In this document: piece after piece, positions 2,027 to 17,460 of the stretch
Numbering within the stretch: the stretch's first letter is position 1
Layout of the letters: every line of letters starts with the position of its first letter
NCBI GenBank assembly: GCA_003280575.1
Contig: QCEN01000001.1
Span: 62,001 to 126,000 of the forward strand
Reading direction: 5' to 3'
DNA length: 64,000 nt
DNA from: Prochlorococcus sp. AG-355-P07
GTDB taxonomy: Bacteria > Cyanobacteriota > Cyanobacteriia > PCC-6307 > Cyanobiaceae
Position numbers and translations under genes: made by a program
Notes under the pieces: generated by a model
Told to the model about the DNA's origin: nothing
What the model saw: only the letters and a program-made list of their open reading frames with translations
The model's database searches: none

Positions 2027-2060
2027 AACCCTCCCAGAAATTCCAACTACTGGAAGGGTT
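2027..2060 (+). terminator. hairpin, possible terminator
   Basis: AACCCTCCCAG pairs with CTGGAAGGGTT across a 12-base loop, with one mismatch. It closes the small-gene cluster at 1648-2020. The tail is AT-rich but lacks a clear T-run, so termination is uncertain. Confidence 0.4.
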
Positions 2061-2161
2061 ATTAAATCGACTCGCAAACTATATTGAATCAATCTATGTC
2101 TTGCAGCAAACCTAGATTCTGCTGACGAGGTTTGGCCTCATTTGATTTATAGCAAAAAATT

Positions 2162-2590: not shown

Positions 2591-2673
2591 AAGTGCTTTG
2601 GGAGCACTAGGTAGCAGGTTCGAATCCTGTCTCCCCGATCAGTTATAGCAGTAAGTCTCAGCTAATAATATAA
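2591..2673 (+). repeat. tRNA-Pro(UGG) 3' half plus shared tail (scar A)
   Basis: The first bases form a tRNA anticodon arm (AGTGC, loop TTTGGGA with anticodon TGG, GCACT). A normal variable loop, a T-arm (GCAGG TTCGAAT CCTGT) and the 3' acceptor strand CTCCCCGA follow. No matching D-arm or 5' acceptor lies upstream, so this is a 3' half and not a tRNA gene. It continues into a tail (GTTATAGCAGTAAGTCTC, then AGCTAATAATATA) that recurs after scars B, D and E. tRNA 3' halves are the usual attachment-site remnants of integrases. Confidence 0.75.
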
Positions 2674-2811
2674 AACACAAAAAAAGTGAGCAAGCAAATT
2701 GCACACATAGTAACTTTAAGTATTTGAAAAACATCTTTAGCAATTAAATAAAGAAAACGATAAACTTTTTCTAGCAAGGAAAATTAAAAAGCAAAAAATA
2801 TTAATAGCTAG

Positions 2812-5800
2812 ATGAATTTTAAAAATAGAAGGAAGATATTATCGTTCATTTGTAAAAATTCACTAAGAAGCTTTTTTTTATTGATTCTATTTAATGTCAA
2901 TAAATCACTAGCAAATAATTGCCAGAACATTGGTGAAATTGGAACCTCTGGCAGTTGCGATGGAAAACTAATTGTAAGCAGACAAAATCTTCTTGACGCA
3001 GTATCGGATGGAAGCTATACCGTTATTGGTCCAGACAATGTTAGTTACACATTTGCTGAGGGTGGTACTGGTGATATTTATACAGGAAACATAAATAATT
3101 TCTCTTCATTATTTAAAGGTAAAAAAACTTTCAATCAAGATATTGGATATTGGGATACAAGCAGTGCTACAAATATGTCTGAAATGTTTTCTAATGCCAG
3201 GAGATTCAATCAAGACATTAGTAATTGGGATGTAAGTAAAGTAACTAAAATGAACAGAATGTTCATAAACGCAAGATATTTTAATCAAGACATTAACGGT
3301 TGGGATGTAAGTAATGTTGAGCAAATAAATCTCATGTTTAGGAATGCGCATAGGTTCAATCAATCTTTGAATAGTTGGGATGTAGGTAATGTGACACAAA
3401 TGGCTCATATCTTTAGGGGTGCAAAAGCATTTAATGGCAATATTTCTGCTTGGAACACCTCAAAAGTAAAAAATTTCATAGCAGTTTTTGATGGTGCAAA
3501 AAGTTTTAATCAAGACATAAGTAATTGGGATGTCAGCTCTGGAACAAGAATGAATCATTTCCTAAGGAATAATGCTGTTTTCAATAAGGATCTATCTAGC
3601 TGGGATGTGCGCAAATTTCGCTCTGAGCCTAAACATTTTGCTCCAAATTTATTAACTGCAGGAGGAGTAAAACCATGTTGGGGATTAAATGGATGCTCAT
3701 CTGCAGATTTAATTCCAGTTTTAAGTTCCTATTCACCAAATAATTTTGATGTTTCTCATGGAAGCAATCTTGATTTGGAGTTGAATTTTAATATGGCAGT
3801 TGAACTAGTTAATAGACAAAGTAACATTATCCTTTATGAAATTAATGAAGGCAACCAAAAAAAAATTGCGACATATAATCTACTCAAATCAAAGAAAGTT
3901 AGTTTCTCAGATGACAAAACAAAGATTACGATCAATATTGGACCTAAAATTACAGACGATACTAAATATGTTGTTAGGATAAGACCTGGAAGTATCAAAT
4001 CTTCTTCTTCAGGGGCATATTTCCAAGGGATCGAACCTGAATATCAAAAATCAGGAAGTATATGGTTCTCTACAGGTAGTAACGATCAAGTACTTGAAAT
4101 CGAAGGTACCACTCCATCAAGTGGATCAAATTCATTAGAGACTGAAAATCCTCACCTAATAATCAGATTCAGTGAAGATATTGTCCTTGGAACAGGTAAT
4201 ATAACCCTAAAAAAATATTCTGATGATTCTGTTGTCAGAGCTTTTAATGTTGCCAATTCAACAGATCAGGAAGATATACAAATAAATAACACTGATCTAA
4301 CCATAAAATTAGTAGATACTGATGGTGATTCATTAGTTATTGGTTCCACCAAATATTATTTGCAAGTAGATGCAACTGCAATTGATAATGCTGGACTTTC
4401 TAAATCATTCGCAGGAATTAGTAATAAAGATGAATATTCATACACAACCATTTCTGCTAGTAACTGCGGTGCAATAACTGGTCAGGCAAAATATTGGAAA
4501 GGTAGAGGAGTAGCTAGTAGCAGTGTCAAGATATATAGAGATAATTCTCTTGTAGATACAAAAACCACAGATGATCTAGGCTTTTATTATTTTTATCCCA
4601 CTCAAACAGGAACTTACCATGTTGAGTTTGTAAAGCCAACTAGTAATACTAATGCAAATAAATTAACAAGGGCAGCTTTATCAATACCACAAGTACAAGT
4701 AAATTCAGATGATATTGTTCCAGTTAACTCTGGGAGATGGGTAAGAAATATAGAAATTACTACTGCATGCGAGTTTCATACAGAAATAGATGGACTTTTA
4801 ATTGATCCTGCAGGTGTTATCTATGATGCAACTACGCGCCAACCAGTCTCTGGAGCTACTGTCAGACTTTTATATAATGGAGAATTAGTTAATAATGACT
4901 GGCTTGATGACAGTGGTGGTGAAAATTCACAAATAACTAGTTCAGATGGACAATACAGTTTCGTTTTCAAAGCAGACTCAGCTGCAGACGGTACATACAC
5001 AATAGAAGTTCTACCTCCAACTGCTTATAAATTTCAAAGTTCTCAAATTCCAGTCGAGGTTGATACATATTCATCCCAATTAGGAGGATCAGTAGAAGAG
5101 ATTCAAGATCAGGAAGAAGCTCCTGCATCAGATCAAGATACAACTTATTATTTATCATTTTCATTCGTATTTACTAATGAAGCTGCGACTACTTCAAATG
5201 GAGTAATTAATAATCATATTCCTGTTGATCCTGCTGTGGATCCCACGACCAAAGCAGATGTTAATGGTTTAGCAGAGGCATGGACAAATGCGGCTATTCG
5301 TTTTAACACATCAAGTGTTAAAGCCATTAATAAAAGATTTGATTGGTTAAGAAACAATCAAAATTCGAAAAAGAAATCTCATCAAGGTATAAATATTTCA
5401 TTTGAAAATCCATTATTAGAAATGGCTTTTAATAGTTCTACAAAAAGGTTCAAAGACCTCGATGAAAATGATTTAGAGAGTTGGGCTAGATCTAATTGGT
5501 CTAATGAGAGACTAAAAAATGAATCAGCTCAGGTATTTAATGATCTTATTGATAACTCTTTAAATCTTGCTTTTGCCGAATTAAGAGAAAAAACATTTGC
5601 CCCAAATCTGAATCCAAGAGGGGGTCAGGTATTTGGCGATTGGTCACTTTGGAGTAATGGTGAGATTCTTTTTGAAAATAAAAGTACTAGTTCAAAAGCA
5701 TCAGAACAAGATGTCAATAGCTTATTTTTAACCTTGGGGATTGATAAACCCTATAAAGAGAATGGTTTGTTTGGAGTTGCTTTCAATTTTGGGAAAGATG

Positions 5801-6456
5801 AAATCAGTGTAGGCAATGCAGGAAGTGGTATTGATTCAACAAACTTAGGCTTAAATTTTTATTCTTCAAATCTTCTAAAAAATAAATTTCCCTTAGAATC
5901 CCAAATCGGTTTTGGAAAGATGGATATGAATACGAAAAGAATTGATAATTCTACTTCTCACAAAGGGAATAGAGATGTTTACATGATTTTCGGATCTGCA
6001 AAGATTTTGGCAGAGCCTTTGAAAATTAACAATTTTGAATTAACTCCTTATGGAAGATTAGATTTGGCTCATATTAATTTAAAGGCCTATTCAGAATCTG
6101 GAAGTAGTCTCGCTCTCACATTTAAAGATCAAACCGTTAATAGAAAGATGGTCTCTTTAGGTCTAAATTTAGATAAGGATTTTATATTTGAGAATTGGAG
6201 ATTTAAACCATTTTTAGGAATATCTTATGGTTATGATTTCACCGGAGATTCGATTGTAGATATGAATTATGTTGGCGACTCTCAAAATCACAGAATTATT
6301 CTTGATGAACTAAGTTCAAATAATTGGAACGCAAATATTGGTTTTGAGTTTTTCAGGGATAATGATTGGTCAGGAAGTATTAGTTATGAGTATGAAAGAG
6401 CTAGTTCTTCTTCTCATATTAATTCCTATCAATTTAATATTTCATGGTTCTTTTAA
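2812..6456 (+). CDS. large surface protein: DUF285 (BspA-like) repeats, Ig-like and carboxypeptidase-regulatory-like domains, C-terminal autotransporter-type barrel
   Basis: A 1,214-residue protein. It has a signal peptide (about 1-35), then seven 25-residue DUF285 repeats of the FNQDISNWDVSxVxxMxxMF type (about 107-270). Two Ig-like domains typical of bacterial surface proteins follow (about 295-420 and 430-545), then two CnaB/carboxypeptidase-regulatory-like domains (about 555-620 and 675-760), a polar linker, and a beta-rich region (about 940-1214) ending in NISWFF. A terminal aromatic residue after alternating strands is the usual mark of an outer-membrane barrel, so the protein is probably displayed by a type V-like route. 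It lies alone, 140 bases after scar A, which suggests island cargo. Exact barrel family and ligand are unknown. Confidence 0.8.
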   Translation: MNFKNRRKILSFICKNSLRSFFLLILFNVNKSLANNCQNIGEIGTSGSCDGKLIVSRQNLLDAVSDGSYTVIGPDNVSYTFAEGGTGDIYTGNINNFSSLFKGKKTFNQDIGYWDTSSATNMSEMFSNARRFNQDISNWDVSKVTKMNRMFINARYFNQDINGWDVSNVEQINLMFRNAHRFNQSLNSWDVGNVTQMAHIFRGAKAFNGNISAWNTSKVKNFIAVFDGAKSFNQDISNWDVSSGTRMNHFLRNNAVFNKDLSSWDVRKFRSEPKHFAPNLLTAGGVKPCWGLNGCSSADLIPVLSSYSPNNFDVSHGSNLDLELNFNMAVELVNRQSNIILYEINEGNQKKIATYNLLKSKKVSFSDDKTKITINIGPKITDDTKYVVRIRPGSIKSSSSGAYFQGIEPEYQKSGSIWFSTGSNDQVLEIEGTTPSSGSNSLETENPHLIIRFSEDIVLGTGNITLKKYSDDSVVRAFNVANSTDQEDIQINNTDLTIKLVDTDGDSLVIGSTKYYLQVDATAIDNAGLSKSFAGISNKDEYSYTTISASNCGAITGQAKYWKGRGVASSSVKIYRDNSLVDTKTTDDLGFYYFYPTQTGTYHVEFVKPTSNTNANKLTRAALSIPQVQVNSDDIVPVNSGRWVRNIEITTACEFHTEIDGLLIDPAGVIYDATTRQPVSGATVRLLYNGELVNNDWLDDSGGENSQITSSDGQYSFVFKADSAADGTYTIEVLPPTAYKFQSSQIPVEVDTYSSQLGGSVEEIQDQEEAPASDQDTTYYLSFSFVFTNEAATTSNGVINNHIPVDPAVDPTTKADVNGLAEAWTNAAIRFNTSSVKAINKRFDWLRNNQNSKKKSHQGINISFENPLLEMAFNSSTKRFKDLDENDLESWARSNWSNERLKNESAQVFNDLIDNSLNLAFAELREKTFAPNLNPRGGQVFGDWSLWSNGEILFENKSTSSKASEQDVNSLFLTLGIDKPYKENGLFGVAFNFGKDEISVGNAGSGIDSTNLGLNFYSSNLLKNKFPLESQIGFGKMDMNTKRIDNSTSHKGNRDVYMIFGSAKILAEPLKINNFELTPYGRLDLAHINLKAYSESGSSLALTFKDQTVNRKMVSLGLNLDKDFIFENWRFKPFLGISYGYDFTGDSIVDMNYVGDSQNHRIILDELSSNNWNANIGFEFFRDNDWSGSISYEYERASSSSHINSYQFNISWFF

Positions 6457-6507
6457 GAAGGGGCATTCCTTTGAGGTAATTTGATCTAAAATGTACCAAA
6501 CAATTAT

Positions 6508-7188
6508 TTAATTTTTAGTAATCGATAATTTCCCTTGTTGATAGCCTTTGACTATTAAAGACAAAATATGAACCGTTGAAACCCAACCTAAAGATATACT
6601 TACAATCCAAGAAACCAAACCAAGGGGATTAAAAGCACTATCTGTGAATGCGCTTATTAAAGATCCCAAAATACTTACAATCAGAAATCCAATAATGCCA
6701 TAACCAACAGACAGCCAAAAAATGGAGCTAAAAAATTCCCAAGTTTGATTTTTTGAAATAAGCTTACTCTTTTTCATGGCATCTAAAGGGCCTATTGATT
6801 CTTCCTCCGAAATAACTTGAACATACATATATCTTTTCGCAAGAATGAAGCCTGGAAAAATTAAACAAACCAAACCAAGTAAAATAAAAATAATTGGAAT
6901 AATGCTTGCTATAAAAATCCTTAAAAGTTTCTGAAGAGTTATTTTAATATTAGAAAATCTTGGGCTTAAGTATTTCTCATTATTATAAATTTTCTTCAAA
7001 GCTTCAATTATCAATATAAAAATAATTCCCTCTATAAAGGCTGAAATTATTTGGGTTAGAAAAGAAGATAAAAAGAAAATTTTTAATGGTAATAATAAAA
7101 CATTAAAATATAAAAATATTGGGAAAAGTTTTTTTATGAGTTGTTGGTTAAAAGGACCAACAAATTTAATTGTTTTTGAAATTTCCAT
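6508..7188 (-). CDS. multi-pass membrane protein resembling the DUF975/YciC family
   Basis: A 226-residue protein with about five or six hydrophobic segments (roughly 18-60, 85-115, 155-185, 190-215). The central motif, a Gly/Pro helix then KRYMYVQVISEEESIGPLDA plus MKKSKLI, matches the conserved loop of YciC/DUF975-type proteins, which have the pattern R-V-E-G-x-A-x-x-R-S. It is convergent with the large surface protein and 51 bases from its stop. No substrate is known. Confidence 0.6.
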   Translation of the reverse strand: MEISKTIKFVGPFNQQLIKKLFPIFLYFNVLLLPLKIFFLSSFLTQIISAFIEGIIFILIIEALKKIYNNEKYLSPRFSNIKITLQKLLRIFIASIIPIIFILLGLVCLIFPGFILAKRYMYVQVISEEESIGPLDAMKKSKLISKNQTWEFFSSIFWLSVGYGIIGFLIVSILGSLISAFTDSAFNPLGLVSWIVSISLGWVSTVHILSLIVKGYQQGKLSITKN

Positions 7189-7378
7189 TATTTGTTAATG
7201 TAAAAATTTTTCAAATATTAGAAATTAATCTAATATTTGACGTTAAAAAGGAAATTCAACCTTGTTTTCAGTTTATGATAATTTTTTAAAAATTATAAGC
7301 AAGCTCTTTTAAGTAAAATGTTTTAAAAATAACCTTTAAAAGAATTTTGAAAAAAAATCTTACTATCTATCTTTTCGG

Positions 7379-7452
7379 TTGGTGGGACTTGGTAGCAGGT
7401 TCTTATCCTGTCACTGCATTAAGTTATAGCAGTAAAACTAAGCTAATAATAT
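7379..7452 (+). repeat. degenerate tRNA 3' half plus shared tail (scar B)
   Basis: TTGGTGGGACTTGGTAGCAG followed by GTTCTTATCCTGTCA aligns with the anticodon loop, variable loop and T-arm of scar A. It is more decayed (TTCTTAT for TTCGAAT) and has lost the acceptor pairing. The tail GTTATAGCAGTAAAACTAAG then CTAATAATATA matches that of scar A. Confidence 0.6.
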
Positions 7453-7543
7453 ATTCCAACAAATAATTGCTTCTCCCAAAACAGATTTTATAGCCTTACT
7501 CCAAGCAAAAAATAAGCTTTTCCTATTTGTATATAATTTACAT

Positions 7544-7669
7544 ATGGAAGAATTTATAGGATTTACTAAAGCGCTTTGGCATAATCAACCAAATACAGTT
7601 ATTGGTGTAGGTTTAGCAATATTAGTTTTATTTGGAATTTATATAAAATTACTCGATATATATAAGTAA
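7544..7669 (+). CDS. small single-pass membrane protein, 41 aa
   Basis: ATG at 7544. A polar N-terminus (MEEFIGFTKALWHNQPN) is followed by one membrane helix (TVIGVGLAILVLFGIYI) and a short charged end. The layout is typical of the tiny membrane proteins of Prochlorococcus. No family is recognised. Confidence 0.5.
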   Translation: MEEFIGFTKALWHNQPNTVIGVGLAILVLFGIYIKLLDIYK

Positions 7670-7735
7670 TATTTCTAATATTTATGCTTTTTTCAATATA
7701 AAAAATATATTTATATTTAAATTTTTAAAAAATAA

Positions 7736-8074
7736 TTAACCTGTGAATCCCATTTTCTGTTCTGCTGCCATTAATGAACCAACAAGCTTATGCTCAGCAA
7801 CCTTTTCATAATCAGTCATAACTGGCTTAATATCAAAATCTATATCAAACTTAACTTTCCAAGGAGCAAAGTGTTCTGTCATTTTTATGCCTGCTGAAGC
7901 TTGGACAATAATATAAACGTTATTTGAGTAAGAGGCATGATACCTACCCAAAACTTTAAATCCTTCAAACTCATCATTCAAAGTGCCATCCTCAATGACC
8001 TTTAAAAAAAGATCATACGCTGCGCCCATAAGAGCAACATTTTTAAAAGTTGCAGTTACTAAGTAAGTATTCAT
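7736..8074 (-). CDS. DUF3303-like small alpha/beta protein, 112 aa
   Basis: Starts MNTYLVTATFKN, contains EFEGFKVLGRYHASYSNN and later PVMTDYEK. The opening strand, the central GFKVLxR segment and the PVxTDxE end are shared with the product at 19552-19863 and resemble DUF3303 proteins, which adopt a ferredoxin-like (dimeric alpha-beta barrel) fold. Function is unknown. A GACAGT element lies about 85 bases upstream on the same strand. Confidence 0.65.
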   Translation of the reverse strand: MNTYLVTATFKNVALMGAAYDLFLKVIEDGTLNDEFEGFKVLGRYHASYSNNVYIIVQASAGIKMTEHFAPWKVKFDIDFDIKPVMTDYEKVAEHKLVGSLMAAEQKMGFTG

Positions 8075-8157
8075 TTAATTAATTAATCTAAAACTTTTCT
8101 AGGATATAAAATTTAAAATTGCGTTAAAGATCTTGAAATGGATATTTCAACCAAAAA

Positions 8158-8184
8158 ATTATTTTAGATCGACTGTCAATAAAT
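8158..8184 (-). promoter_or_regulatory. GACAGT element, copy 2
   Basis: Reading on the minus strand: TATTGACAGTCGATC then TAAAATAATT. It points at the DUF3303-like gene at 7736-8074, about 85 bases away, the longest spacing in the set. Only the final GG of the consensus is missing. Confidence 0.65.
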
Positions 8185-8189
8185 ATTTT

Positions 8190-8339
8190 TTAATTCTCAT
8201 CCATTATCTTCCCTCCATACTCTCTTGCTATTACATCTAAACATCTAAGAATATCTTTATTTTTTAAAAGATCTGTATGCTCCAAATAATTAAGAAGAGT
8301 TCTTATTTGTTCAATAGTATTTTCTTCTAATTCCTTCAT
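8190..8339 (-). CDS. hypothetical 49-aa protein downstream of the gloA remnant
   Basis: ATG at 8337-8339 overlaps the TAA of the glyoxalase remnant (TAATG). The product is charged and helical (begins MKELEENTIEQIRTLLNYLE, ends GGKIMDEN). The overlap suggests it was once translated with gloA; whether it is still expressed now that gloA is broken is unclear. Confidence 0.5.
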   Translation of the reverse strand: MKELEENTIEQIRTLLNYLEHTDLLKNKDILRCLDVIAREYGGKIMDEN

Positions 8340-8401
8340 TAGTTATTCTCTATTAGTTTTATCTTATATCCATCAGGATCTTCTACGAAAGCTAAGACTG
8401 C
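8339..8401 (-). pseudogene. gloA: 3' remnant of glyoxalase I (gloA)
   Basis: Only the last 20 residues survive: AVLAFVEDPDGYKIKLIENN. The AFVxDPDGYxIxLIE pattern is the C-terminal metal-binding end of lactoylglutathione lyase. An in-frame TGA lies immediately before this stretch, and the rest of the gene is absent; the DUF3764 gene with its own promoter element sits there instead. This is a deletion or replacement scar. Confidence 0.75.
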
Positions 8402-8418
8402 TCATCTTATTTAATTTG

Positions 8419-8724
8419 TTAATCACAACAACTGTCTTTAGTTAATGAAAAAGTCCAAGAGGATTCCTCCATCGTTGATAAGTCAACTCTATGAGTAGCC
8501 ATCCATTCACCGTTCGCTTCCACAAACTTCTGAACATTACCTTCTGGAGCCTGATGAATAACAATAATTTTTTGAGGATCTTCCTTGCTTACTCCTCTAA
8601 AAAGCGGCTTTATATTAAATTCAGCATGTCTTTTGTCTGCCTCTGCACTATCAAATATCGAAGCCCATTCATCGAAAGTACTTTCAATCTTAAAAGTAAA
8701 TACTGAGGTAACAGAGCAAGACAT
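8419..8724 (-). CDS. DUF3764-like small protein, 101 aa
   Basis: The pattern FTFKIESTFDEWASIFDSAE, then PLFRGVSKEDPQKIIVIHQA and a late FVEANGEW, matches DUF3764 proteins known from marine cyanobacteria; the product at 27069-27350 is a second member. A ferredoxin-like alpha/beta fold is likely. The C-terminus DSCCD carries a vicinal Cys pair absent from the other copy. A GACAGT element ends 18 bases before the ATG. The gene abuts the gloA remnant. Function unknown. Confidence 0.7.
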   Translation of the reverse strand: MSCSVTSVFTFKIESTFDEWASIFDSAEADKRHAEFNIKPLFRGVSKEDPQKIIVIHQAPEGNVQKFVEANGEWMATHRVDLSTMEESSWTFSLTKDSCCD

Positions 8725-8742
8725 AATAAATGTGATAGTTAC

Positions 8743-8765
8743 CCTTATTGTAGATCTACTGTCAA
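8743..8765 (-). promoter_or_regulatory. GACAGT element, copy 3
   Basis: Reading on the minus strand: TTGACAGTAGATC then TACAATAAGG, 18 bases before the ATG at 8724. One mismatch to the consensus. Confidence 0.75.
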
Positions 8766-8880
8766 ATTAAAACTTACTAAACCCACGCAAATAACTCATA
8801 ACAGAGCATATACAGCAATGAACAGCTAAAGCAAATACATTGTCAACACTTAAGTCTATAAAATTAACTTTACTACTGGT

Positions 8881-8924
8881 TCTTTTAGAGCACTAAGTTG
8901 CAGGTTCGAATCCTGTTGCACCGA
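8881..8924 (+). repeat. degenerate tRNA 3' half (scar C)
   Basis: TTTTAGAGCACTAAGTTGCA then GGTTCGAATCCTGTTGCACC. It keeps the variable loop and a perfect T-arm (GCAGG TTCGAAT CCTGT) aligned with scar A. The anticodon loop is altered and the common tail is absent. No 5' half is present. Confidence 0.6.
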
Positions 8925-9130
8925 ATTTTATAATCCAATTCACTGAAAGTTTTCCTAGCCTATCTTTTTTATTACTTAGATTCTGTCCTCAATGATTGCG
9001 GACAAATTGCGGACAAATATTATTCTATTAATCACGACAAACCTCACAGAACTAAGCAATAAATTTGATATAGATTAAAACGTAGTGCCACTTTGTAAGA
9101 GCTATTAGATTCAAAAAAAATTCTCTATGA

Positions 9131-9152
9131 TTGACAGTTGATTTAAACTGAG
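9131..9152 (+). promoter_or_regulatory. GACAGT element, weak copy
   Basis: TTGACAGTTGATTTAAACTG keeps the first half of the consensus perfectly but has lost the TANAAT half. It lies 22 bases before the frameshifted gene at 9175, the usual distance, so it looks like a decayed copy in front of a decayed gene. Confidence 0.45.
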
Positions 9153-9174
9153 AGAAATAAGACCCCTCTTTTTT

Positions 9175-9413
9175 ATGTCACCTGATAATGGCATGAAAAA
9201 TATCAGATACTTTGTAATTACATCTACAACTGCAATATTACTTATTTTTATTTCTTTGATACCTATTTCAAAAAAGGCATTTTATTGGAGTCAATGCTTT
9301 AAAAAACTTTTCAATGGATTGATAAATATGAAATGGACTTAAAAAATTGGAATAAAGCATCAAAAAAAAGTATTGCAGTAGCAATTTGCAATGGTGCTTT
9401 TTACAAACCTTAA
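9175..9413 (+). pseudogene. small exported/membrane protein gene broken by a frameshift
   Basis: The first 45 codons encode an N-terminal hydrophobic helix (about residues 13-32) and then KAFYWSQCFKK. The frame ends early at 9342. After an A-run near 9303 the next frame continues sensibly: QWIDKYEMDLKNW, then KKSIAVAICNGAFYKP. Inserting a single A restores one frame of 79 residues. The C-terminal AICNGA motif resembles a small-protein family I recall from Prochlorococcus. It could be a true pseudogene or a homopolymer sequencing error. Confidence 0.6.
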
Positions 9414-9433
9414 GTTAAAACAAAATAATTCGA

Positions 9434-9455
9434 TTGACAGTCGATCTACAATAGG
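9434..9455 (+). promoter_or_regulatory. GACAGT element, copy 4
   Basis: TTGACAGTCGATC then TACAATAGG, ending 23 bases before the ATG at 9479. One A fewer than the consensus in the AATAAGG part. Confidence 0.75.
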
Positions 9456-9478
9456 TAGCAATTAGCAAATTATTCACA

Positions 9479-9742
9479 ATGCCTAATACGTTAGTTGTTT
9501 CGACCTTTGGTTGTCCTTATTCTGAATTTGAAATGATGGTAAAAAAGGTTGATAAAGAACAAGGATACGTTTTTTGTTCTGAGCTAGAAATTATTAAAGT
9601 AAATGAACATAAAGCATTGATTCTTATGAACTGTTCTGATTTAGAAAAGTTTGGGGCAATGCTTGGACAACCAGAATTAAAGCAATGGGATATTGATAAC
9701 AACTGTGTAGATACTGTTTATAATCTTGAACTTATTGAGTAG
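9479..9742 (+). CDS. small alpha/beta protein under a GACAGT element, 87 aa
   Basis: Begins MPNTLVVSTFGCPYSEFEMM and has beta-alpha-beta spacing like the DUF3303 and DUF3764 neighbours, but I cannot assign it to either. Two Cys residues (C12, C34) occur in the first half. Its stop is followed directly by the ATG of a degenerate secreted-peptide gene. Function unknown. Confidence 0.65.
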   Translation: MPNTLVVSTFGCPYSEFEMMVKKVDKEQGYVFCSELEIIKVNEHKALILMNCSDLEKFGAMLGQPELKQWDIDNNCVDTVYNLELIE

Positions 9743-9850
9743 ATGAAACGCTAACTACTCCTACTACTAGCAGCACTAGCTTTACCTAATGCTGTAAATG
9801 CTGATGTTCGCTCATATAGTTTTAGAAAGTGGGGCAAAATTTTGGAATAG
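9743..9850 (+). pseudogene. small secreted-peptide gene with nonsense codon
   Basis: Reads M-K-R-stop-LLLLLAALALPNAVNADVRSYS and ends at 9850. The part after the stop is a textbook signal peptide ending ALPNAVNA. TAA at codon 4 is one change from TTA (Leu). It begins immediately after the stop of the 87-aa gene. A second truncated stub starting MKR overlaps the stop of the gene at 10162-10443. Confidence 0.6.
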
Positions 9851-10120
9851 TTAAATTCTGCATGAAGCTGCAATCAGAAGCACTTAAAGAATTTTGAGGG
9901 GGTGGAGGGAGAACTAATAACAATAATAATTTCGACTCAATAAAAAATTTAACCAACATAAATGATATGCTTTTACAAATTATATTATTGTGAACAAACA
10001 ATAGACTTGCTTAAATTAATTATTTACCAATAAAACACCCCTCCTTATTCTTACTGTTAGATTTCCTTGAGTTTGTTCAAACGCATTTTATGTTCTACCC
10101 TCGGCCTATAATTAACTTGA
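9851..10120 (+). other. intergenic stretch, nothing recognised
   Basis: No plausible gene on either strand. It contains a G-rich patch (GAGGGGGTGGAGGGAG) near 9896. The GACAGT element of the next gene follows at 10121. Confidence 0.5.
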
Positions 10121-10143
10121 TTGACACTTGATCTAGAATAAGG
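10121..10143 (+). promoter_or_regulatory. GACAGT element, copy 5
   Basis: TTGACACTTGATC then TAGAATAAGG, 18 bases before the ATG at 10162. Confidence 0.75.
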
Positions 10144-10161
10144 AGCAATAAGTTCCTTTTT

Positions 10162-10443
10162 ATGCTCTTTCTAATTTCTTATAAATTTACTGATGCAAAC
10201 TCCCAAGACAAGGGATCCAAAATGTTAAAAGAATGGTACGACAAAGGAGGGCCACAAAATAGACCAAAGGGTTATGATGTTAAATCTTGGATTTTCTTAC
10301 CTCAACATGGCAACGGTTACTCTGTTGTAGATGCTGATTCTTTAGAAACTATTTGGAAACAGTGGAGTCCTTGGAGAGAATTATTAGAATTTACTATTGA
10401 ACCTTGTGCAGATTTAGATCAAACAATTGCTCTTTATTGTTAA
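10162..10443 (+). CDS. DUF3303-like small protein, 93 aa
   Basis: Starts MLFLISYKFTDANSQDKG and has GYSVVDADSLETIWKQWSPW and a late FTIEPCADLDQTIALY. The opening MLFLxxYxF, the (V/A)(V/E)ADxxExxxxxW centre and the PxxDxxxxx end fit DUF3303. Expected fold is a dimeric alpha-beta barrel; no function is known. The TAA overlaps the ATG of a seven-codon MKR stub. A GACAGT element lies just upstream. Confidence 0.7.
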   Translation: MLFLISYKFTDANSQDKGSKMLKEWYDKGGPQNRPKGYDVKSWIFLPQHGNGYSVVDADSLETIWKQWSPWRELLEFTIEPCADLDQTIALYC

Positions 10444-10615
10444 TGAAACGCTGCACTCCTTAAAAAGTGGTCAAATGTAAAAAAATTTACTTTTAATTTT
10501 TAATGCAATACTAGATAAAAATTCTAATTTCATTAGGAGAACTTTTCTAAATTAGTTTTCCCATTATCCAAAATTACCACAGTGATCCTATTGGATTAAT
10601 TGTAATCAAGTCCAT

Positions 10616-10690
10616 TTTTAGGAGTACTAGGTCGGGTTCGATTCCCGGCATCCCAATCAGTTTTAGCACTTAGTCTCAGCTGAAAAATTT
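10616..10690 (+). repeat. degenerate tRNA 3' half plus tail (scar D)
   Basis: TTTTAGGAGTACTAGGTCGG then GTTCGATTCCCGGCATCCC: anticodon-loop end, variable loop, T-arm (CGGG TTCGATT CCCGG) and acceptor strand. The tail TCAGTTTTAGCACTTAGTCT, then CAGCT, matches the tails of A, B and E. Confidence 0.65.
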
Positions 10691-10748
10691 TTTTTTCTCA
10701 AATAAGGGTTCCCTCGTATTTCCCTCAAATGCATAATCTTCAATTTAT

Positions 10749-11639
10749 TTAAGATGCCCATTCGCAAGGTTTAGAGTATTTTTTATAAATTTCAGCATGA
10801 CCTTCTTTGACTAACATTTGTTGTAAGTTTTCTCCATTAAGACTTAATTCACCAACTGTTCTTCCATATTTATCCTCAGTTACTCTTCGAATAGATACTT
10901 TTTCACCCTTAATCATTTCATTTAAAAAATTTTTAGCGGCAATTGCTTCTTTTGGTTTTGCTCTTTTCCCTTTTAATTCAGGGGTATCAATACAAGCTAG
11001 TCTTATTTTTTCTCCGTCACTAGAAGTACAAGTATCTCCGTCATAACAATCTTTGATTGTAATTTCTCCAATTTCAGGTTTATTTGATTTTCTATTAAGA
11101 GCTTCACATGCTTCTCCATCATTATCTCTATCAAGATATGAATATCCTGCTTGGAGAAATTTTTGAGCTTTTGCCCAATCACCAATATCACCACATCTTA
11201 GCTTCTCTCTTTTTGATAAAGATATTTTTTTACATTCTGGAAATTGAGTAGCCTCAGACCCTTCATAGCTACATGATATTTCACCACTTATAAAGTTATA
11301 AAAGAAAGATGGTTGTTTTTTTAAATCTTCCGGGATTATTGATACAAGAGAAAAATTTTCATTACCAGTACATTTATTACTGCCTTCATTATCAAATTCA
11401 TAACCAATTAAATTAGATGGAGTGAATATTAAATTTTTTCCCTGAGAATTATTACTCTCACATTCGATTTTTATACTTGAGATTGAATTTGCGGCTATTA
11501 CTATCTCTGCTCTTTGAATAACTTCTTGAAATCTAGGTAGAGCGATAATTCCAAGGATAGAAAATACTCCAACAATTGTTATCAACTCAATTAAACTAAA
11601 GCCCTGATCTAATTTGATTAATTTTTTAAACGTATACAA
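10749..11639 (-). CDS. prepilin N-terminus fused to Excalibur domain and staphylococcal-nuclease domain
   Basis: A 296-residue protein. Residues 1-40 are a type IV prepilin leader and helix (cleavage at G13/F14, FSLIELITIV, conserved E18). Residues about 50-145 form a Cys-containing pseudopilin-like region. Residues 149-180 match the Excalibur calcium-binding motif (DRDNDGEACE at 170-179). Residues 192-296 are a thermonuclease domain with D200-G-D202-T, R213, D218-T-P-E221 and R260 in the expected spacing, so it should be active. The expected product is a nuclease anchored to a pilus or pseudopilus at the cell surface, cutting external DNA. The three-domain combination is unusual. It lies alone, between scars D and E. 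Confidence 0.85.
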   Translation of the reverse strand: MYTFKKLIKLDQGFSLIELITIVGVFSILGIIALPRFQEVIQRAEIVIAANSISSIKIECESNNSQGKNLIFTPSNLIGYEFDNEGSNKCTGNENFSLVSIIPEDLKKQPSFFYNFISGEISCSYEGSEATQFPECKKISLSKREKLRCGDIGDWAKAQKFLQAGYSYLDRDNDGEACEALNRKSNKPEIGEITIKDCYDGDTCTSSDGEKIRLACIDTPELKGKRAKPKEAIAAKNFLNEMIKGEKVSIRRVTEDKYGRTVGELSLNGENLQQMLVKEGHAEIYKKYSKPCEWAS

Positions 11640-11778
11640 TATAAAAATAATTTAAACAACTTAAATTTAGTCCAAAAGAATTCATAAAACTTACTTTATT
11701 TTGATTTCCCTTAATCTTCCTTCAAATAGCTTTTCATTAGGCTTGTTTTAATAATGAAATTAAGATATTTATTAAATT

Positions 11779-12390
11779 TTAGTATTCTTCATAGCTAAAC
11801 TTTTGCCCTCCTATGCTTGCCTCATACATAAGACCTCCTTTTGAATATGTAAGAACTGCAACTCCGTCACTGTAATCAGCAGATGCGTTGGCTCCCTCCG
11901 AAATTAATGCAGCACTAGCTGATGCCCCAAATTCAAAATTACCTTCAGTAAATCTCTCAAGTGATTTCTTATCTTTGAAAAAGATAATTTGGCTAAATGC
12001 TTGTCCACCTAATTGGAAGCCTATTGATACTTGAGTTAAAGTTGTTTTTCCAATAACATTCCCTTTTTCAAAAACCTCACCACTACCTCTAGCACCGCCG
12101 ATACCAATACCTCCTTTTCCTATATTTGGAAAAACAGCATAACCACTAGCTTTTTTAAAGTAGGGTTCCAAAGAAGATATTTTTTTAAACTTATTTAAAG
12201 CCTTTATAGTCTTATTACTAGCTTTTTTATCTGATAATGGTTTCCAACCAGAAATTAATAATTCATCTGAAAGTTTATTTAATTGAGATTCATTAAAAGC
12301 AGATGATTGAACTGAAGTTAGATAATGCGGAAAAATTAAAATTAATAGCGCAATCAAAAAAAACTTCCTAGTCATTATCAAATTCATAAT
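11779..12390 (-). CDS. SYLF (Ysc84-like) domain secreted protein
   Basis: I start at the ATG at 12388-12390 because it gives a clean signal peptide (MNLIMTRKFFLIALLILIF). A 17-codon upstream extension to 12441 is possible but runs into scar E. The mature part carries the SYLF signature: SGYAVFPNIGKGGIGIGGA, GxxxEKGxVIG, then SIGFQLGGQ. SYLF proteins bind phosphoinositides or other lipids in eukaryotes; the role of secreted bacterial forms is unknown. Length of about 203 residues is normal. Confidence 0.78.
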   Translation of the reverse strand: MMNLIMTRKFFLIALLILIFPHYLTSVQSSAFNESQLNKLSDELLISGWKPLSDKKASNKTIKALNKFKKISSLEPYFKKASGYAVFPNIGKGGIGIGGARGSGEVFEKGNVIGKTTLTQVSIGFQLGGQAFSQIIFFKDKKSLERFTEGNFEFGASASAALISEGANASADYSDGVAVLTYSKGGLMYEASIGGQKFSYEEY

Positions 12391-12443
12391 TACTTCAACA
12401 ATAAAAGAATAATATACCCCAATAGGATTTTCATATATCATGG

Positions 12444-12520
12444 TGCATTAGGAGCAATAGTTCTTAGGATCGAATCCTGTGGCTCCGATCAGTAATAGCA
12501 GCAAGTCTCAGCTAATATAT
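12444..12520 (+). repeat. degenerate tRNA 3' half plus tail (scar E)
   Basis: TGCATTAGGAGCA keeps an anticodon-stem/loop form. TTCTTAGGATCGAATCCTGT then GGCTCCGA gives the T-arm and an acceptor strand that can pair with GGAGC upstream. The tail TCAGTAATAGCAGCAAGTCT then CAGCTAATATATAA is shared with A, B and D. Confidence 0.65.
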
Positions 12521-12688
12521 AATTTATCTATAAGAAAAATTCCCAAAAAGTCCTTATTACTTTTAAAAAGTATCAAATAAGTTGTTTAGTTTTAAAAACA
12601 TGAAAAATGCTTTATTTTTTCTTCTTTTTTAAATCATTATGCTTTATTGTCCAAAATATCAAGTTTTTAAGTAATTATTTTTAAGAAA

Positions 12689-13444
12689 ATGAGCTTTTTA
12701 AAAACATTTGTAATTAAAGGATTTTTAAATTTATTAAAAAATAATCTACCTAATTTAAGACTATTTAATAGGAAAAGACGTAATGGTTTAAAAATTTGTT
12801 TAGGGCCTGATAATTTTTCCTATATGTGTTTTTTTACCTCTTTCAAGTCAGGACTAATTAATAAATTCATTCAAGATTTAAAAGAAATTGATTACTTCAT
12901 AGATATCGGTGCCAATATTGGATGGTATTCACTTTGCGCTGCAAAATCATCAAAATGCCACGTTTTTAGTATTGAACCTAATCCAAATACATTTATTACC
13001 TTATTGACAAATATAAAAATTAATAATTTATCTCATAGAGTTACTGTTATTAATGCAGCGATATGTTCAAATAATCATAATGTAACTATTACAAATCTAA
13101 ATTCAGCAGATCAAAATTTTGTGGAATTTAATAATTCAAATGGCATTAAAGTAATCCCATTAAAATTAGATGAGGTAGTGAGTAAAATTCCTAAAAATAA
13201 AAATATAGCTTTAAAAATCGACGTAGAGGGATTAGAGGAAAATGTGATATTTTCAGGAGAAAAATCTATATCTGAGATAAAAGAGATCAAATTAATTTAC
13301 TGTGAAATAACTACTTCTAAGATACCTATCATAAATAAATTTCTGAATGAAAATGGTTTTATGTGTATAGAATCTATTCCTAATAAGGGAGCAAATTGTG
13401 TTAATAATAAATATGTGAGAAAGTCAATTTCTAAAGCCTATTAA
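12689..13444 (+). CDS. FkbM-family methyltransferase
   Basis: A 251-residue protein with the SAM-binding motif FIDIGANIGWYSLCAAK at about residues 70-86, an SIEPNPNTF acidic loop, and the FkbM-type ALKIDVEGLEENV segment at about 175-187. FkbM enzymes O-methylate sugars or polyketides. In island context a role in modifying surface polysaccharide is likely but not shown. It sits between scars E and F. Confidence 0.85.
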   Translation: MSFLKTFVIKGFLNLLKNNLPNLRLFNRKRRNGLKICLGPDNFSYMCFFTSFKSGLINKFIQDLKEIDYFIDIGANIGWYSLCAAKSSKCHVFSIEPNPNTFITLLTNIKINNLSHRVTVINAAICSNNHNVTITNLNSADQNFVEFNNSNGIKVIPLKLDEVVSKIPKNKNIALKIDVEGLEENVIFSGEKSISEIKEIKLIYCEITTSKIPIINKFLNENGFMCIESIPNKGANCVNNKYVRKSISKAY

Positions 13445-13463
13445 ATAATTTATAAGTATAAAT

Positions 13464-13512
13464 ATGCTTTAGGAGCACGAGCTTTAAGGTTCGAATCAAG
13501 CCGCTCCGACCA
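13464..13512 (+). repeat. degenerate tRNA 3' half ending in CCA (scar F)
   Basis: TGCTTTAGGAGCA resembles an anticodon arm. GCTTTAAGGTTCGAATCAAG then CCGCTCCGACCA gives T-arm and acceptor strand with an encoded CCA, the only copy with one. It lacks the common tail; instead a small hairpin (GCGAGT/ACTCGC, 13532-13550) follows. Confidence 0.6.
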
Positions 13513-13955: not shown

Positions 13956-14092
13956 GAGTCGATCTAAATTTAGAGGGTAAAAAATCTCATGGTATTTACC
14001 CCACTGGGCAATGGTAATTAAATATTAGAAAGCAGAAATAACAACATAATTAAAAAAAACTTTTTAGGATGTTGAAAAATAAATTTTTATAA

Positions 14093-14347
14093 ATGAATAA
14101 ATCTAAAGATAATTTTTCAAGCGAAAGCTTTTACCCAGATAGTAACTTTTATGCAGAACAAGGAAAAGATCCTAAAGAGACCCAAGTTTCAGAAGATCAA
14201 ATATCCAATATGGGAGAAAATTTTGAATGGCCAAATACCTACTGGTTTATTGCGGAAAGAACAAATGGAAGACTTGCAATGATAGGCTTCATGGCTGTCA
14301 TTATTAACTACACATTATTTGGATGGATAGCATATCCAATCCTATAA
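14093..14347 (+). CDS. hli: high-light-inducible protein (Hli/Scp)
   Basis: An 84-residue protein with a polar N-terminus (about 1-45) and the single chlorophyll-binding helix ERTNGRLAMIGFMAVIINYT at about 59-78, which carries the ExxNGRxAMIGF motif. Hli proteins bind pigments and protect photosystems during light and other stress in the thylakoid. It ends one base before the ATG of the next gene, so the two form an operon. Confidence 0.92.
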   Translation: MNKSKDNFSSESFYPDSNFYAEQGKDPKETQVSEDQISNMGENFEWPNTYWFIAERTNGRLAMIGFMAVIINYTLFGWIAYPIL

Positions 14348-14575
14348 ATGAGTAATTCAAATTTTGACAAAAATGGATTAGATAAGTCTGGGACGCATCG
14401 CCTTCAATATGCTGCATTCGTTGTAACTGCATTTGTTATTTATTTTGGATGGGCTTTTTTCAATGATGATAATTTTCAACATTTCGCTATAAAAATATTC
14501 AAGTTCTGGAATTGCAATGGATATAACCCTTTAAGTTATTGCGTAATGCGTTGGAAAGTGGACTTTTACCCTTAA
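14348..14575 (+). CDS. hypothetical membrane protein following hli, 75 aa
   Basis: The ATG directly follows the hli stop. One membrane helix (YAAFVVTAFVIYFGWAFF, about 21-38). Beyond about residue 50 the sequence (NCNGYNPLSYCVMRW) looks unlike the first part, so the natural C-terminus may have been lost to a frameshift. Function unknown, probably thylakoid stress-related by context. Confidence 0.5.
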   Translation: MSNSNFDKNGLDKSGTHRLQYAAFVVTAFVIYFGWAFFNDDNFQHFAIKIFKFWNCNGYNPLSYCVMRWKVDFYP

Positions 14576-14603
14576 AAAAATTTCTAAAAATACTTGTCTT
14601 CTT

Positions 14604-14819
14604 TTAACTATCTTTTAGTAGCTGTATATATTCTTTTATTGCATTTTCTATAATCTTAACTCTTGAACCTTTCATCACTAGCTCACTACTTCTCTCACAA
14701 ACACACCTATAGGGAATCATCATTGCATCAATGCTTAATGAAGGCTTATAGACATCTTCAAATGGTTCAAAGACTTTTACCCTAATTCTTTCCTTATTTA
14801 TAAAATTAAATACCTCCAT
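14604..14819 (-). CDS. hypothetical protein, 71 aa
   Basis: I use the ATG at 14817-14819 (MEVFNFINKERIRVKVFEPF). A GTG three codons upstream is possible. The product is soluble, with two Cys residues in RCVCE. No family recognised. It is convergent with the hli pair. Confidence 0.5.
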   Translation of the reverse strand: MEVFNFINKERIRVKVFEPFEDVYKPSLSIDAMMIPYRCVCERSSELVMKGSRVKIIENAIKEYIQLLKDS

Positions 14820-15017
14820 ACTTAACACTAGATATAAAGTAATTTAGAAAAATCCCACCAAAAACTAATAATCTTTTAATAGAAAGTTTTTCTGGCGATT
14901 CTTTTTTTTGGATATATTTTTTAAAATATCTCCTAAGAAGGAAAGTTGGTGAGATTATAGTTTTAATAACTTTGGAAGGTATCTAGCGGGATTTAGCTAA
15001 AAAGAGGGAGTTTTTTA

Positions 15018-15740
15018 TCAGAAATATGTTTTCGAAGAATTTTCGAGTAATCGATTTAATTCTATAAGTTCTTCTTTGGTAAATTCGCGATATTTTCCGG
15101 TTGGAACGTCTAACTTAATATTCATAATTCTTACACGCTTTAATGACATTACCGTATAGCCTAGGGATTCACACATTCTCCTAATCTGACGGTTAAGTCC
15201 TTGAGTGAGTATGATTTTGAATGTTTTTTGACCCAATTGTTTTACGAAACATTTTTTAGTTATGGTATCTAAAATTTCAACTCCATTACGCATGCTTTGA
15301 ACAAAGTCTTTATTAATCGGACGATTAACGCTTACGATATATTCTTTTTCATGATTATTTCTTGCTCTGAGTATTTTATTTACGATGTCTCCATCGTTAG
15401 TTAAAAAAATTAATCCTTCACTTGGCTTATCTAATCTTCCAACGGGAAAAATTCTTTTAGGGTACTTAATAAAATCTATGACATTGTCGGGTTCTAATCT
15501 TCTATCAGTTGTGCAAACAATTCCAATTGGTTTATTAAAGGCTAAGTAAATATTTTTTTGTTTTGTTGATTTAATGATTTTTTGACCTTCAACTTCTACT
15601 TGATCACCTTCCTCTACCTTGGAGCCAATTTCTGTAATTTCACCATTAATTGTTACTTTTCCTCCTTCAATTAATCTATCTGCTGCTCTTCTAGAACAAA
15701 ACCCGACTTCGCTTAAGTATTTATTTATTCTAGTAGCCAT
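15018..15740 (-). CDS. rluF: 23S rRNA pseudouridine synthase, RluF-like
   Basis: A 240-residue protein. It has an N-terminal S4 RNA-binding domain (about 1-50, MATRINKYLSEVGFCSRRAA), then the RsuA/RluB/RluF catalytic domain with catalytic Asp104 in GRLDKPSEGLIFLTNDG. The sequence through HEKEYIVSVNRPI, TKKCFV and QGLNRQIRRMCESLGY is closest in my memory to E. coli RluF (U2604 modification) rather than to a cyanobacterial RluB, which suggests lateral origin. A GACAGT element ends 34 bases before the ATG. Confidence 0.85.
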   Translation of the reverse strand: MATRINKYLSEVGFCSRRAADRLIEGGKVTINGEITEIGSKVEEGDQVEVEGQKIIKSTKQKNIYLAFNKPIGIVCTTDRRLEPDNVIDFIKYPKRIFPVGRLDKPSEGLIFLTNDGDIVNKILRARNNHEKEYIVSVNRPINKDFVQSMRNGVEILDTITKKCFVKQLGQKTFKIILTQGLNRQIRRMCESLGYTVMSLKRVRIMNIKLDVPTGKYREFTKEELIELNRLLENSSKTYF

Positions 15741-15774
15741 TTTAAATATTTTTTTGCACTGATAATTTATGCCT

Positions 15775-15797
15775 CCTTATTTTAGATCGATTGTCAA
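15775..15797 (-). promoter_or_regulatory. GACAGT element, copy 7
   Basis: Reading on the minus strand: TTGACAATCGATC then TAAAATAAGG. It lies 34 bases before the rluF-like gene. Confidence 0.75.
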
Positions 15798-15818
15798 TTT
15801 AGAACTGAAATTTAGGGC

Positions 15819-16073
15819 CTAGATATCTTTTTCCCAAACTTCTTCAGTTTTCCTCCAACCCTGAGAAAGTAATCTTTCATAAATTTCTCTAGCTAAATCT
15901 ATATCTACAGAAACAGTTGTTGTGATTAAAGGAGGTTCTTTCCCAAATTCGCCAACTATTTTTCCCGTATCTACAAACATATACTCGAAGACTCCCGCAA
16001 TACTCTTATCATTTTTCATAAATCTTTTCACTTCTGTTCTTTTAGAATTAATCAACCAATGAGATTTAGCCAT
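15819..16073 (-). CDS. DUF1651-like protein, 84 aa
   Basis: Begins MAKSHWLINSKRTEVKRFMK, then DTGKIVGEFGKEPPLITT and a late LLSQGWRKTEEVWEKDI. The (H)WL start, EPP centre and L-x-x-GWR end are the marks of DUF1651, a family largely confined to marine cyanobacteria. Function unknown. Confidence 0.75.
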   Translation of the reverse strand: MAKSHWLINSKRTEVKRFMKNDKSIAGVFEYMFVDTGKIVGEFGKEPPLITTTVSVDIDLAREIYERLLSQGWRKTEEVWEKDI

Positions 16074-16330
16074 AATTTTAAATTTGCCCTTACCTTTTGA
16101 TTTTCTGGTTCCTCAAGAAGAATATTGGCTTTTTCTTGAAAGAGGTTACCAAAAATGTTTACAGCAAAAAAACCAATTTTTGTAGCTTATAGTTTTCACC
16201 CTATAACGGACTAGATTCATTTTATTGCATAAATCACGCTCTTTCATTTATTTAGAAAGTATTTGGTCAAAGTATTTAGCATATAAAACGTTATTGATGC
16301 TTTGTCTTATAGGAAAATAAGTCAAGAATA

Positions 16331-16519
16331 TTAGATTTTTTTTATTATCATTTCTAGAAATAACAAATCGAGGATTTTGTCTCTTAAACCATAATTAACA
16401 TTCTCCAAATTTTGGATATTTGGATCTTTATCGATAATCCAATCAGCTAAGCTGTTGAAAATTTCTTTAGTCAAATCAAAAAAATAACTAAATATTGTCT
16501 CAATATTAAAATTAAAGCT
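16331..16519 (-). pseudogene. remnant of a small hypothetical gene
   Basis: A 62-residue frame without a start codon, bounded upstream by a TAG. It reads coherently (YFFDLTKEIFNSLADWIIDK, then YGLRDKILDLLFLEMI) and helically, unlike random AT-rich sequence. The region around it (16083-16330) holds nothing else I recognise. Probably a decayed gene. Confidence 0.35.
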
Positions 16520-16556
16520 CTACCCCTGTGATTTAATAGGCATTGAATTTACTCCT

Positions 16557-16640
16557 TTAGTAATGCCAAAGTAACCAAAATAATCCACAGCCATAAATAA
16601 TTCCTATTGTGAAATTTACTGAAAGTATTATGGTTTTCAT
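16557..16640 (-). CDS. possible 27-aa membrane peptide coupled to the SRAP gene
   Basis: The ATG directly follows the TAA of the SRAP gene on the same strand. MKTIILSVNFTIGIIYGCGL then FWLLWHY is a single hydrophobic helix. The junction suggests it is translated; there is no homology evidence. Confidence 0.35.
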   Translation of the reverse strand: MKTIILSVNFTIGIIYGCGLFWLLWHY

Positions 16641-17279
16641 TTAAAACAAACTCATTTGATCAGTTTCTTTTTTCTTTACATCTTCTACTAGCCATCCATG
16701 GGGTGACCAACCCATCAAAATTGGGAATAACCCCTTTAATTTATCAGAATCTTTAACTTGTTCGGTCCATAGTTCCTCATAGCCATTGGGGACTACAACA
16801 GGCATACGGTGATGAAGAGTTTTTACTAAAGCATTTGGTTTAGTTGTTAAAACGCAGCAACTTTCAAGTTCAGTACTATCAGGCGAGGTCCACTTACTCC
16901 AGATTCCTCCCAACCAAAAAGTCTCATAATTCTCCTTTCGAATACGATATTTTTTTTCAAAAAAACCACTTGCTGGTATTAAACACCTTTTATGTTTCCA
17001 ACTCCCACTAAATAATTTTTTTTCTTCTAAAGTTTCTGATCTTGCATTAAATGGTCTTGGTCTCTTTTTATCAAATGGATCTTTAGCCCAAGGAGAAATA
17101 AAGCCCCATGTCATAAAAGTAGTTTTAATTCTTCCTTCGTTTTTAATTACAAGAACAGGATCAGTTGGTCTTATTAAACTTTGAGTCTCGTATTTAGAAT
17201 CAAGTCCCATAGGATAATCCTGTTTCAAAACATCTGGTAACTTCTCAAACTTAGTTTTAAGCTCAAATCTTCCACACAT
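16641..17279 (-). CDS. SRAP-domain (YedK/HMCES-like) DNA-protein crosslinking protein
   Basis: A 212-residue protein beginning MCGRFE, with Cys2 as the residue that forms the thiazolidine link to abasic sites after Met removal. Other expected residues are visible: N78 in PFNARSE, E108 in SGFFE and H157 in HHRMPVVV. The family shields abasic sites in single-stranded DNA and prevents strand breaks. Length is normal. A GACAGT element lies about 44 bases upstream, which puts a DNA-damage protein in the same putative regulon as the small alpha/beta proteins. Confidence 0.9.
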   Translation of the reverse strand: MCGRFELKTKFEKLPDVLKQDYPMGLDSKYETQSLIRPTDPVLVIKNEGRIKTTFMTWGFISPWAKDPFDKKRPRPFNARSETLEEKKLFSGSWKHKRCLIPASGFFEKKYRIRKENYETFWLGGIWSKWTSPDSTELESCCVLTTKPNALVKTLHHRMPVVVPNGYEELWTEQVKDSDKLKGLFPILMGWSPHGWLVEDVKKKETDQMSLF

Positions 17280-17322
17280 TTATCTTATAAATCCTTCAAA
17301 AGATCAAAAAACTAACTAATTT

Positions 17323-17346
17323 TATTATTTTAGATTGGCTGTCAAT
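17323..17346 (-). promoter_or_regulatory. GACAGT element, copy 8
   Basis: Reading on the minus strand: TTGACAGCCAATC then TAAAATAATA, about 44 bases before the SRAP gene. Confidence 0.65.
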
Positions 17347-17460
17347 AATAATCAAATTCCTATTTTTTGATCATAGGAATTTATTCATTTAATGTTTAAG
17401 AGAACATGTAGATATTGAAAAGCTTCCTCAAATTTAATTTCAATGTTCGAAAATTAATTT

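Follow-up and report, generated by a model that had tools for sequence, protein, structure and literature searches.

Serial tRNA-Pro(UGG) 3' halves in a Prochlorococcus genome very probably mark the oldest part of a tycheposon-type element array

Introduction

The window, a stretch of 64,000 nucleotides from a 1.52-Mb draft Prochlorococcus genome (G000:C1:62001-126000, G000 being the genome and C1 the contig), contains six fragments that resemble the 3' half of a tRNA and are separated by small groups of genes. The locus raises the question of which tRNA gave rise to these fragments, and of how they and the genes between them came to stand in a row. A preliminary description of the window proposed repeated integrations, each bringing a module, stacked beside one tRNA target. 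Elements of this kind, tycheposons, were reportedly described in Prochlorococcus by Hackl and colleagues in Cell in 2023. Here, the fragments were followed through the whole genome, other Prochlorococcus genomes and viral contigs. We conclude that the region very probably represents the oldest stretch of a row of tycheposon-kind elements stacked at the tRNA-Pro(UGG) gene.

Results

The six fragments are 3' halves of tRNA-Pro(UGG)

The fragments, referred to as scars A to F, and the units between them are listed in Table 1. In blastn searches with the core plus its flank, E-values ranged from 6e-34 (scar A) to 4e-5 (scar F), well beyond the best match among 20 dinucleotide-shuffled windows (E = 0.24), and the six 3' halves in one orientation that had been described are therefore real. 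With the core profile alone, scars B (12.2 bits) and D (16.3 bits) were weak, the best shuffle reaching 8.3. Among the 30 tRNA genes of the genome, tRNA-Pro(TGG) was the top-scoring source for each of the six scars. The origin from tRNA-Pro(UGG) thus stands, but the preliminary statement that one scar was clearly of this type was too narrow, and tRNA-Leu, considered as the origin of some fragments, was rejected. ARAGORN found no tRNA at scars A-F and no 5' half at any of them, in agreement with what had been noted by eye. An Rfam search at the same six places returned no small-RNA family, which was rejected as their identity, and a sub-threshold tRNA match at scar A only. A terminator-like hairpin (GCGAGT..ACTCGC) follows scar F, and the same is present at the intact tRNA.

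Table 1. Scars, units, genes and repeats in the window (positions are those of the window).
Feature	Position	Strand	Remark
Scar A, tRNA-Pro(UGG) 3' half	2593..2638	+	44/46 identical to intact gene
Right flank of scar A, class II	2639..2709	+	TCAGTTATAGCAGTAAGTCTCAGCTAATAATAT, then decayed triple repeat
Unit A-B	2639..7378	+	Two genes
1214-aa surface protein, DUF285 repeats and autotransporter beta-domain	2812-6456	+	Unit A-B
226-aa membrane-type protein	6508-7188	-	Unit A-B
Scar B, strongly decayed tRNA-Pro 3' half	7379..7423	+	Class II flank to 7453
Unit B-C	7424..8878	+	Small proteins DUF3303 (7736-8074 -) and DUF3764 (8419-8724 -)
Scar C, tRNA-Pro 3' half	8879..8924	+	39/46 identical
Unit C-D	8925..10616	+	87-aa protein (9479-9742 +), DUF3303 protein (10162-10443 +)
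Arm-like direct repeat, unit C-D	8995..9017	+	ATTGCGGACAA-ATTGCGGACAA, period 11, 70 bp past core
Scar D, decayed tRNA-Pro 3' half	10617..10652	+	Class II flank
Unit D-E	10653..12442	+	Two genes
Arm-like direct repeat, unit D-E	10708..10729	+	GTTCCCTCGTA-TTTCCCTCAAA, period 11, one mismatch
Fusion of pilin-like N-terminus (read from sequence) with SNase and Excalibur domains	10749-11639	-	Unit D-E
Ysc84-like protein	11779-12441	-	Unit D-E
Scar E, tRNA-Pro 3' half	12443..12488	+	37/46 identical; class II flank
Unit E-F	12489..13464	+	One gene, FkbM methyltransferase (12689-13444 +)
Scar F, last tRNA-Pro 3' half of array	13465..13509	+	
Conserved host DNA, far side of island	14061..17400	.	Seen beyond scars in many relatives

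The window holds the far end of a longer array

A search beyond the window, as had been suggested, placed the intact tRNA-Pro(UGG) gene at G000:C1:31228-31302, 30.7 kb left of the window. A search with a profile derived from the scars of this genome itself found 17 further 3' halves downstream of the gene, between C1:32049 and C1:75509 and without exception on its strand. The array spans about 44 kb, and the window contains only the last six of its 17 scars. Scars 1-10 match the gene at 45-46 of 46 positions and scar 11 at 43, and those in the window have decayed further; the window therefore holds the oldest end of the array. The proposed stacking beside one tRNA is thus upheld, with the correction that the six scars are only the tail, the oldest of the 17, and that the tRNA itself lies outside the window. 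As described for tycheposons, insertion in this genome is at a tRNA gene, with the tRNA as the border of the island. The reported lack of a recombinase gene in the window extends to the array of G000, where none was found; the sole PF00589 match of the genome is an XerC-like gene on contig C9.

The cargo includes genes of ecological relevance, as in tycheposons: a surface protein, an FkbM methyltransferase and a phosphate-type cluster. Gene functions of units outside the window were mostly read from the sequence alone, and this holds for the last. It forms a 16-kb unit between two scars left of the window (G000:C1:42511-58738; L010:2511-18738), with PstS, two phosphatase-like proteins, a PhoB/PhoR-like pair, ArsR, GAPDH, and MFS and chromate-type transporters. 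This unit carries no matching right arm (see below), and some units may have been merged or trimmed. Related units hold the first to third positions in other genomes. Nearly identical DUF3303-type proteins are encoded by different units of the array (window 7736-8074 and G000:C1:58122-58439, both minus strand), and the unit directly left of scar A contains the cyanobacterial small RNA Yfr13 (window 2041-2139, minus strand, 91.9 bits).

Scars decay with distance from the tRNA throughout the genus

Several 3' halves are present in most of the 61 Prochlorococcus genomes sampled. The scar score dropped with distance from the tRNA in 8 of 8 closed or nearly closed genomes (rho -0.68 to -1.0), and none of 20000 permutations equalled the gradient when these first eight were pooled. 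In a second set of 52 arrays, none used before, all 222 of 222 scars lay downstream on the tRNA strand, and rho was negative in 22 of the 25 arrays with at least four scars (pooled, 0 of 5000 permutations); the genomes all belong to one genus and are not independent, and many assemblies end inside arrays. Since nearly all scars in about 100 arrays lie downstream and decay with distance, the youngest unit is presumably the one nearest to the tRNA. The exceptions, all in the first set, were same-strand scars upstream of the tRNA in three genomes (G024, G035 and G039) and three minus-strand scars in G030. They are not predicted by the simplest one-sided model.

Other sequences were observed on the upstream side. 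Halves of the opposite kind, tRNA-Pro 5' halves without a 3' half, occur in 13 genomes (including G003, G041, G049, G052, G124 and G146), always upstream of the intact tRNA-Pro and 0.6-4.9 kb away from it, and several are followed by period-11 repeats. Such repeats precede the intact tRNA in 34 of 97 arrays and in none of the shuffled ones. These sequences look like a mirror family, one that restores the 5' half of the tRNA and accumulates on its upstream side. Matches of 20-29 bits may be due to chance. In four genomes (G023, G035, G036 and G039; loci L104, L101, L102 and L112), a recombinase of the family described below, with 462 aa in its complete copies, is encoded 191 bp to the left of the intact tRNA-Pro core, and the intact tRNA may therefore itself ride on an element.

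Most testable units carry the same 8-bp word at both ends

A direct repeat of an 8-bp word is common after the core; its spacing is 11 bp in 247 and 12 bp in 78 of 333 cases, and it starts about 25-34, 50-59 or 70-79 bp past the core. The word varies from unit to unit, and within a given unit it comes back some 100-150 bp ahead of the right core. The same word was found at both ends of 212 of 287 testable units (100 of 137 in the first set, 112 of 150 in the second), a count from which decayed arms are missing because words had to be exact 8-mers. When partners were swapped, matches fell to a mean of 6.8 and a maximum of 17 of 137 in the first set (internal control, 3 of 130) and to a mean of 9.5 and a maximum of 18 of 150 in the second (internal control, 1 of 138). 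We read the paired words as putative recombinase arm sites, mostly on cassettes that lack an integrase. The lambda-type layout, in which arm-type repeats flank a core site to the left and right, was seen in relatives, in upstream units of the array and in attP-like sites of IMG/VR contigs. Among 42 word clusters, most had no recombinase in the sample.

In the window, this pattern has largely eroded. Left repeats can still be recognised in units C-D and D-E alone; at scars A, B, E and F no convincing arm repeat was found, and no window unit has convincingly matched ends. The triple repeat after scar A (CACACAAA / CAAGCAAAT / CACACATA), whose intact counterpart is CACGCAAA three times over in G029, was judged by eye to be decayed, exact-repeat scoring giving no repeat there. 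In the 12 units left of scar A, the left repeat is exact in 10 and has one mismatch in 2, and the word is present at the right end in 9 (7 exact, 2 with one mismatch).

The arm-like repeats might instead be regulatory sites of the cargo, bound by a repressor or an excisionase or linked to a terminator, and many of them do sit just past a terminator-like flank. A regulatory role does not account for their fixed position from the core with a period of 11-12, for the return of the same word at the opposite end of the unit, or for the phage contigs in which the repeats adjoin the core next to a recombinase, and we consider it unlikely.

Similar repeats are not confined to Prochlorococcus. In freshwater Cyanobium/Synechococcus (L220, L241, L275 and others), period-11 repeats are present at +29 after tRNA-Pro(UGG), with different words (CGTGCCCA, CGCGCCCA, GGCACCCA) and the same geometry. 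Exact patterns of class II or class V arms had no match in IMG/VR. An apparent avoidance of one array by units with the same word was also followed up and dropped. In the first set, 2 cases were seen against 8.9 expected (p 0.0035), the effect weakened with a slightly different choice of sites (4 versus 9.3, p 0.037), it was not replicated in 50 new arrays (12 versus 17.0, p 0.13), and the combined p was 0.09 once related cargo was excluded.

Recombinases are rare and resemble lambda integrase

The complete units number 433; 60% of them are shorter than 2.5 kb, and 21 (about 5%) contain a recombinase gene, 95% having none. Exactly one open reading frame of at least 100 aa was present in 114 of the 182 small units with arm repeats. 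Without exception, the recombinase genes occupy the minus strand and lie 70-190 bp from the right core. The aligned proteins retain the tyrosine-recombinase residues Arg, Lys, His and Tyr at their conserved positions. An AlphaFold2 model of the recombinase (mean pLDDT 83, pTM 0.54) has a predicted alpha-beta-beta-beta-alpha N-terminus, and its best fold matches were the Tn1549 integrase and lambda integrase (for lambda Int, TM 0.41 by query length). According to the model, these enzymes are probably lambda-Int-like, with a putative N-terminal arm-binding domain.

Units have been duplicated and transferred, and viral contigs carry attP-like sites

A 16.4-kb unit of G034 is present twice, at tRNA-Pro and at a second place, the copies being 99.97% identical from core to core; its genes read as those of nitrate assimilation and include a nitrate transporter, a nitrate reductase and molybdopterin genes. 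Various units recur in several species at differing array positions. Scar-to-scar units shared across species are 98.8-99.7% identical, compared with 79-84% for a host marker: a 3222-bp unit shared by G021 and G027 is 99.7% identical (host marker 83.0%), and a 911-bp unit of G000 is 98.8% identical to one in G015 (host marker 79.5%). Two units common to G027 and G034 stand in altered order.

In six IMG/VR contigs, the core was found without a tRNA 5' half and with an adjoining recombinase whose aligned part shares 27-41% identity with the G034 enzyme. Repeats are present on the far side of the core in those contigs that extend far enough. This combination of core, recombinase and repeats, with the tRNA 5' half missing, is as expected of a free attP. 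Locus L082 also encodes an Erf-like and a minor tail protein, which suggests that temperate phages use this site as well.

Segments could also be shuffled or duplicated by homologous recombination at the identical 46-bp cores, with no integrase needed for each unit. The cores near the tRNA are identical and the reordered units of G027 and G034 are of the kind such exchange can yield, and it may contribute. However, it gives no reason to expect unit-specific words at a fixed distance at both ends, recombinase genes at one end only, or attP-like sites free in viral contigs, and as the source of the array it is quite improbable. The fragments might instead be small RNAs or decayed tRNA genes that a gene duplication left behind, a reading that can be set aside with near certainty: they resemble tRNA, and scar A has its covariance score, but the 5' half is missing from each, the 3'-half repeats are bounded at the anticodon arm across the genus, and complete tRNAs or a conserved small-RNA structure, either of which would have told against the preliminary description, were absent at such points in the arrays examined.

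Discussion

The repeated integration at one tRNA, with a module at each step, that had been proposed from the window gains from the decay gradient, the matched ends, the transfer between species, the duplicated element and the recombinases found elsewhere; its suggested likeness to known island growth in Prochlorococcus also holds, the locus fitting the tycheposon mode. In this model of serial integration, a lambda-Int-like tyrosine recombinase would join attP to the 3' half of the tRNA, from the anticodon arm to the 3' end (about 46 bp). The element's own 3' half would rebuild the tRNA, and the old one would be displaced downstream as a scar. Repeated insertion would add units beside the tRNA and shift older ones away, an order that agrees with the observed gradient. 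One scar-to-scar unit would correspond to one element, made of a core, arm repeats, cargo that is often a single gene, a second occurrence of the arm word and a closing core. Units without a recombinase would presumably depend for their movement on an enzyme that acts in trans and recognises their arm word. The six window units would then be fossils, their cores and arms decayed and several cargo genes (surface protein, FkbM methyltransferase) still open. Because no recombinase lies in the array of G000, we infer the insertion of the window units from relatives.

It is possible, at a chance that we put a little below even, that the arrays serve as integron-like libraries of cassettes. The units would share a core and bear a private 8-bp address, in fixed geometry at both ends, which a recombinase that matches it would read in trans. 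The analysis places the island in a known growth mode with a time order, from young units near the tRNA to fossils farthest from it. Should the arm words be addresses of recombinases, it would become predictable which recombinase moves which cargo; recombinase-less cassettes could be linked to their helpers, and nutrient and surface genes traced between Prochlorococcus populations.

The repeats may have been seen before. In 2006, Coleman and colleagues are said to have reported in Science that in island ISL3 of strain MIT9312 a 48-bp 3' end of tRNA-Pro is repeated about 13 times beside tRNA-Pro. This is probably the same locus in another strain and, if so, the repeats themselves were already known; a literature search on the tRNA-Pro repeats of MIT9312 found nothing.

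Tycheposons are described as elements of 4-200 kb by which islands grow at tRNA genes in Prochlorococcus (PMC10872708, PMC10187409). In the excerpts of these accounts, they share with the present units the tRNA target, a tyrosine recombinase (here in 21 of the 433 units, with none found in the array of G000), nutrient and other cargo, and the remodelling of islands, and the nitrate element of G034 resembles published nitrate tycheposons. Tycheposon recombinases reportedly form a deep-branching clade, and a set of replication or packaging hallmark genes has been published for these elements. Compared with the size range excerpted from PMC10872708, the units here are small, most being below 2.5 kb, and they largely lack a recombinase; private matched arm words have no mention in the excerpts of either account. 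Additive islands are a second relative. Excerpted descriptions of fGI-2 of Ca. Methylopumilus, with repeats of the last 20 nt of tRNA-Lys (PMC10872708), and of the additive flexible genomic islands of Alteromonas (PMC5217437) likewise show cassettes gained at one site and repeated tRNA 3' ends. They differ in a shorter repeat and in their hosts, and these excerpts describe neither arm repeats nor a decay gradient. Features that may be new are the private arm words matched at both ends, the prevalence of single-gene units without a recombinase, and the apparent mirror family upstream. The arrays work like those of integrons, with rows of mostly single-gene cassettes, new ones entering at one end and recombination between cassettes; they differ from integrons in that the target is a tRNA gene with a lambda-type att layout.
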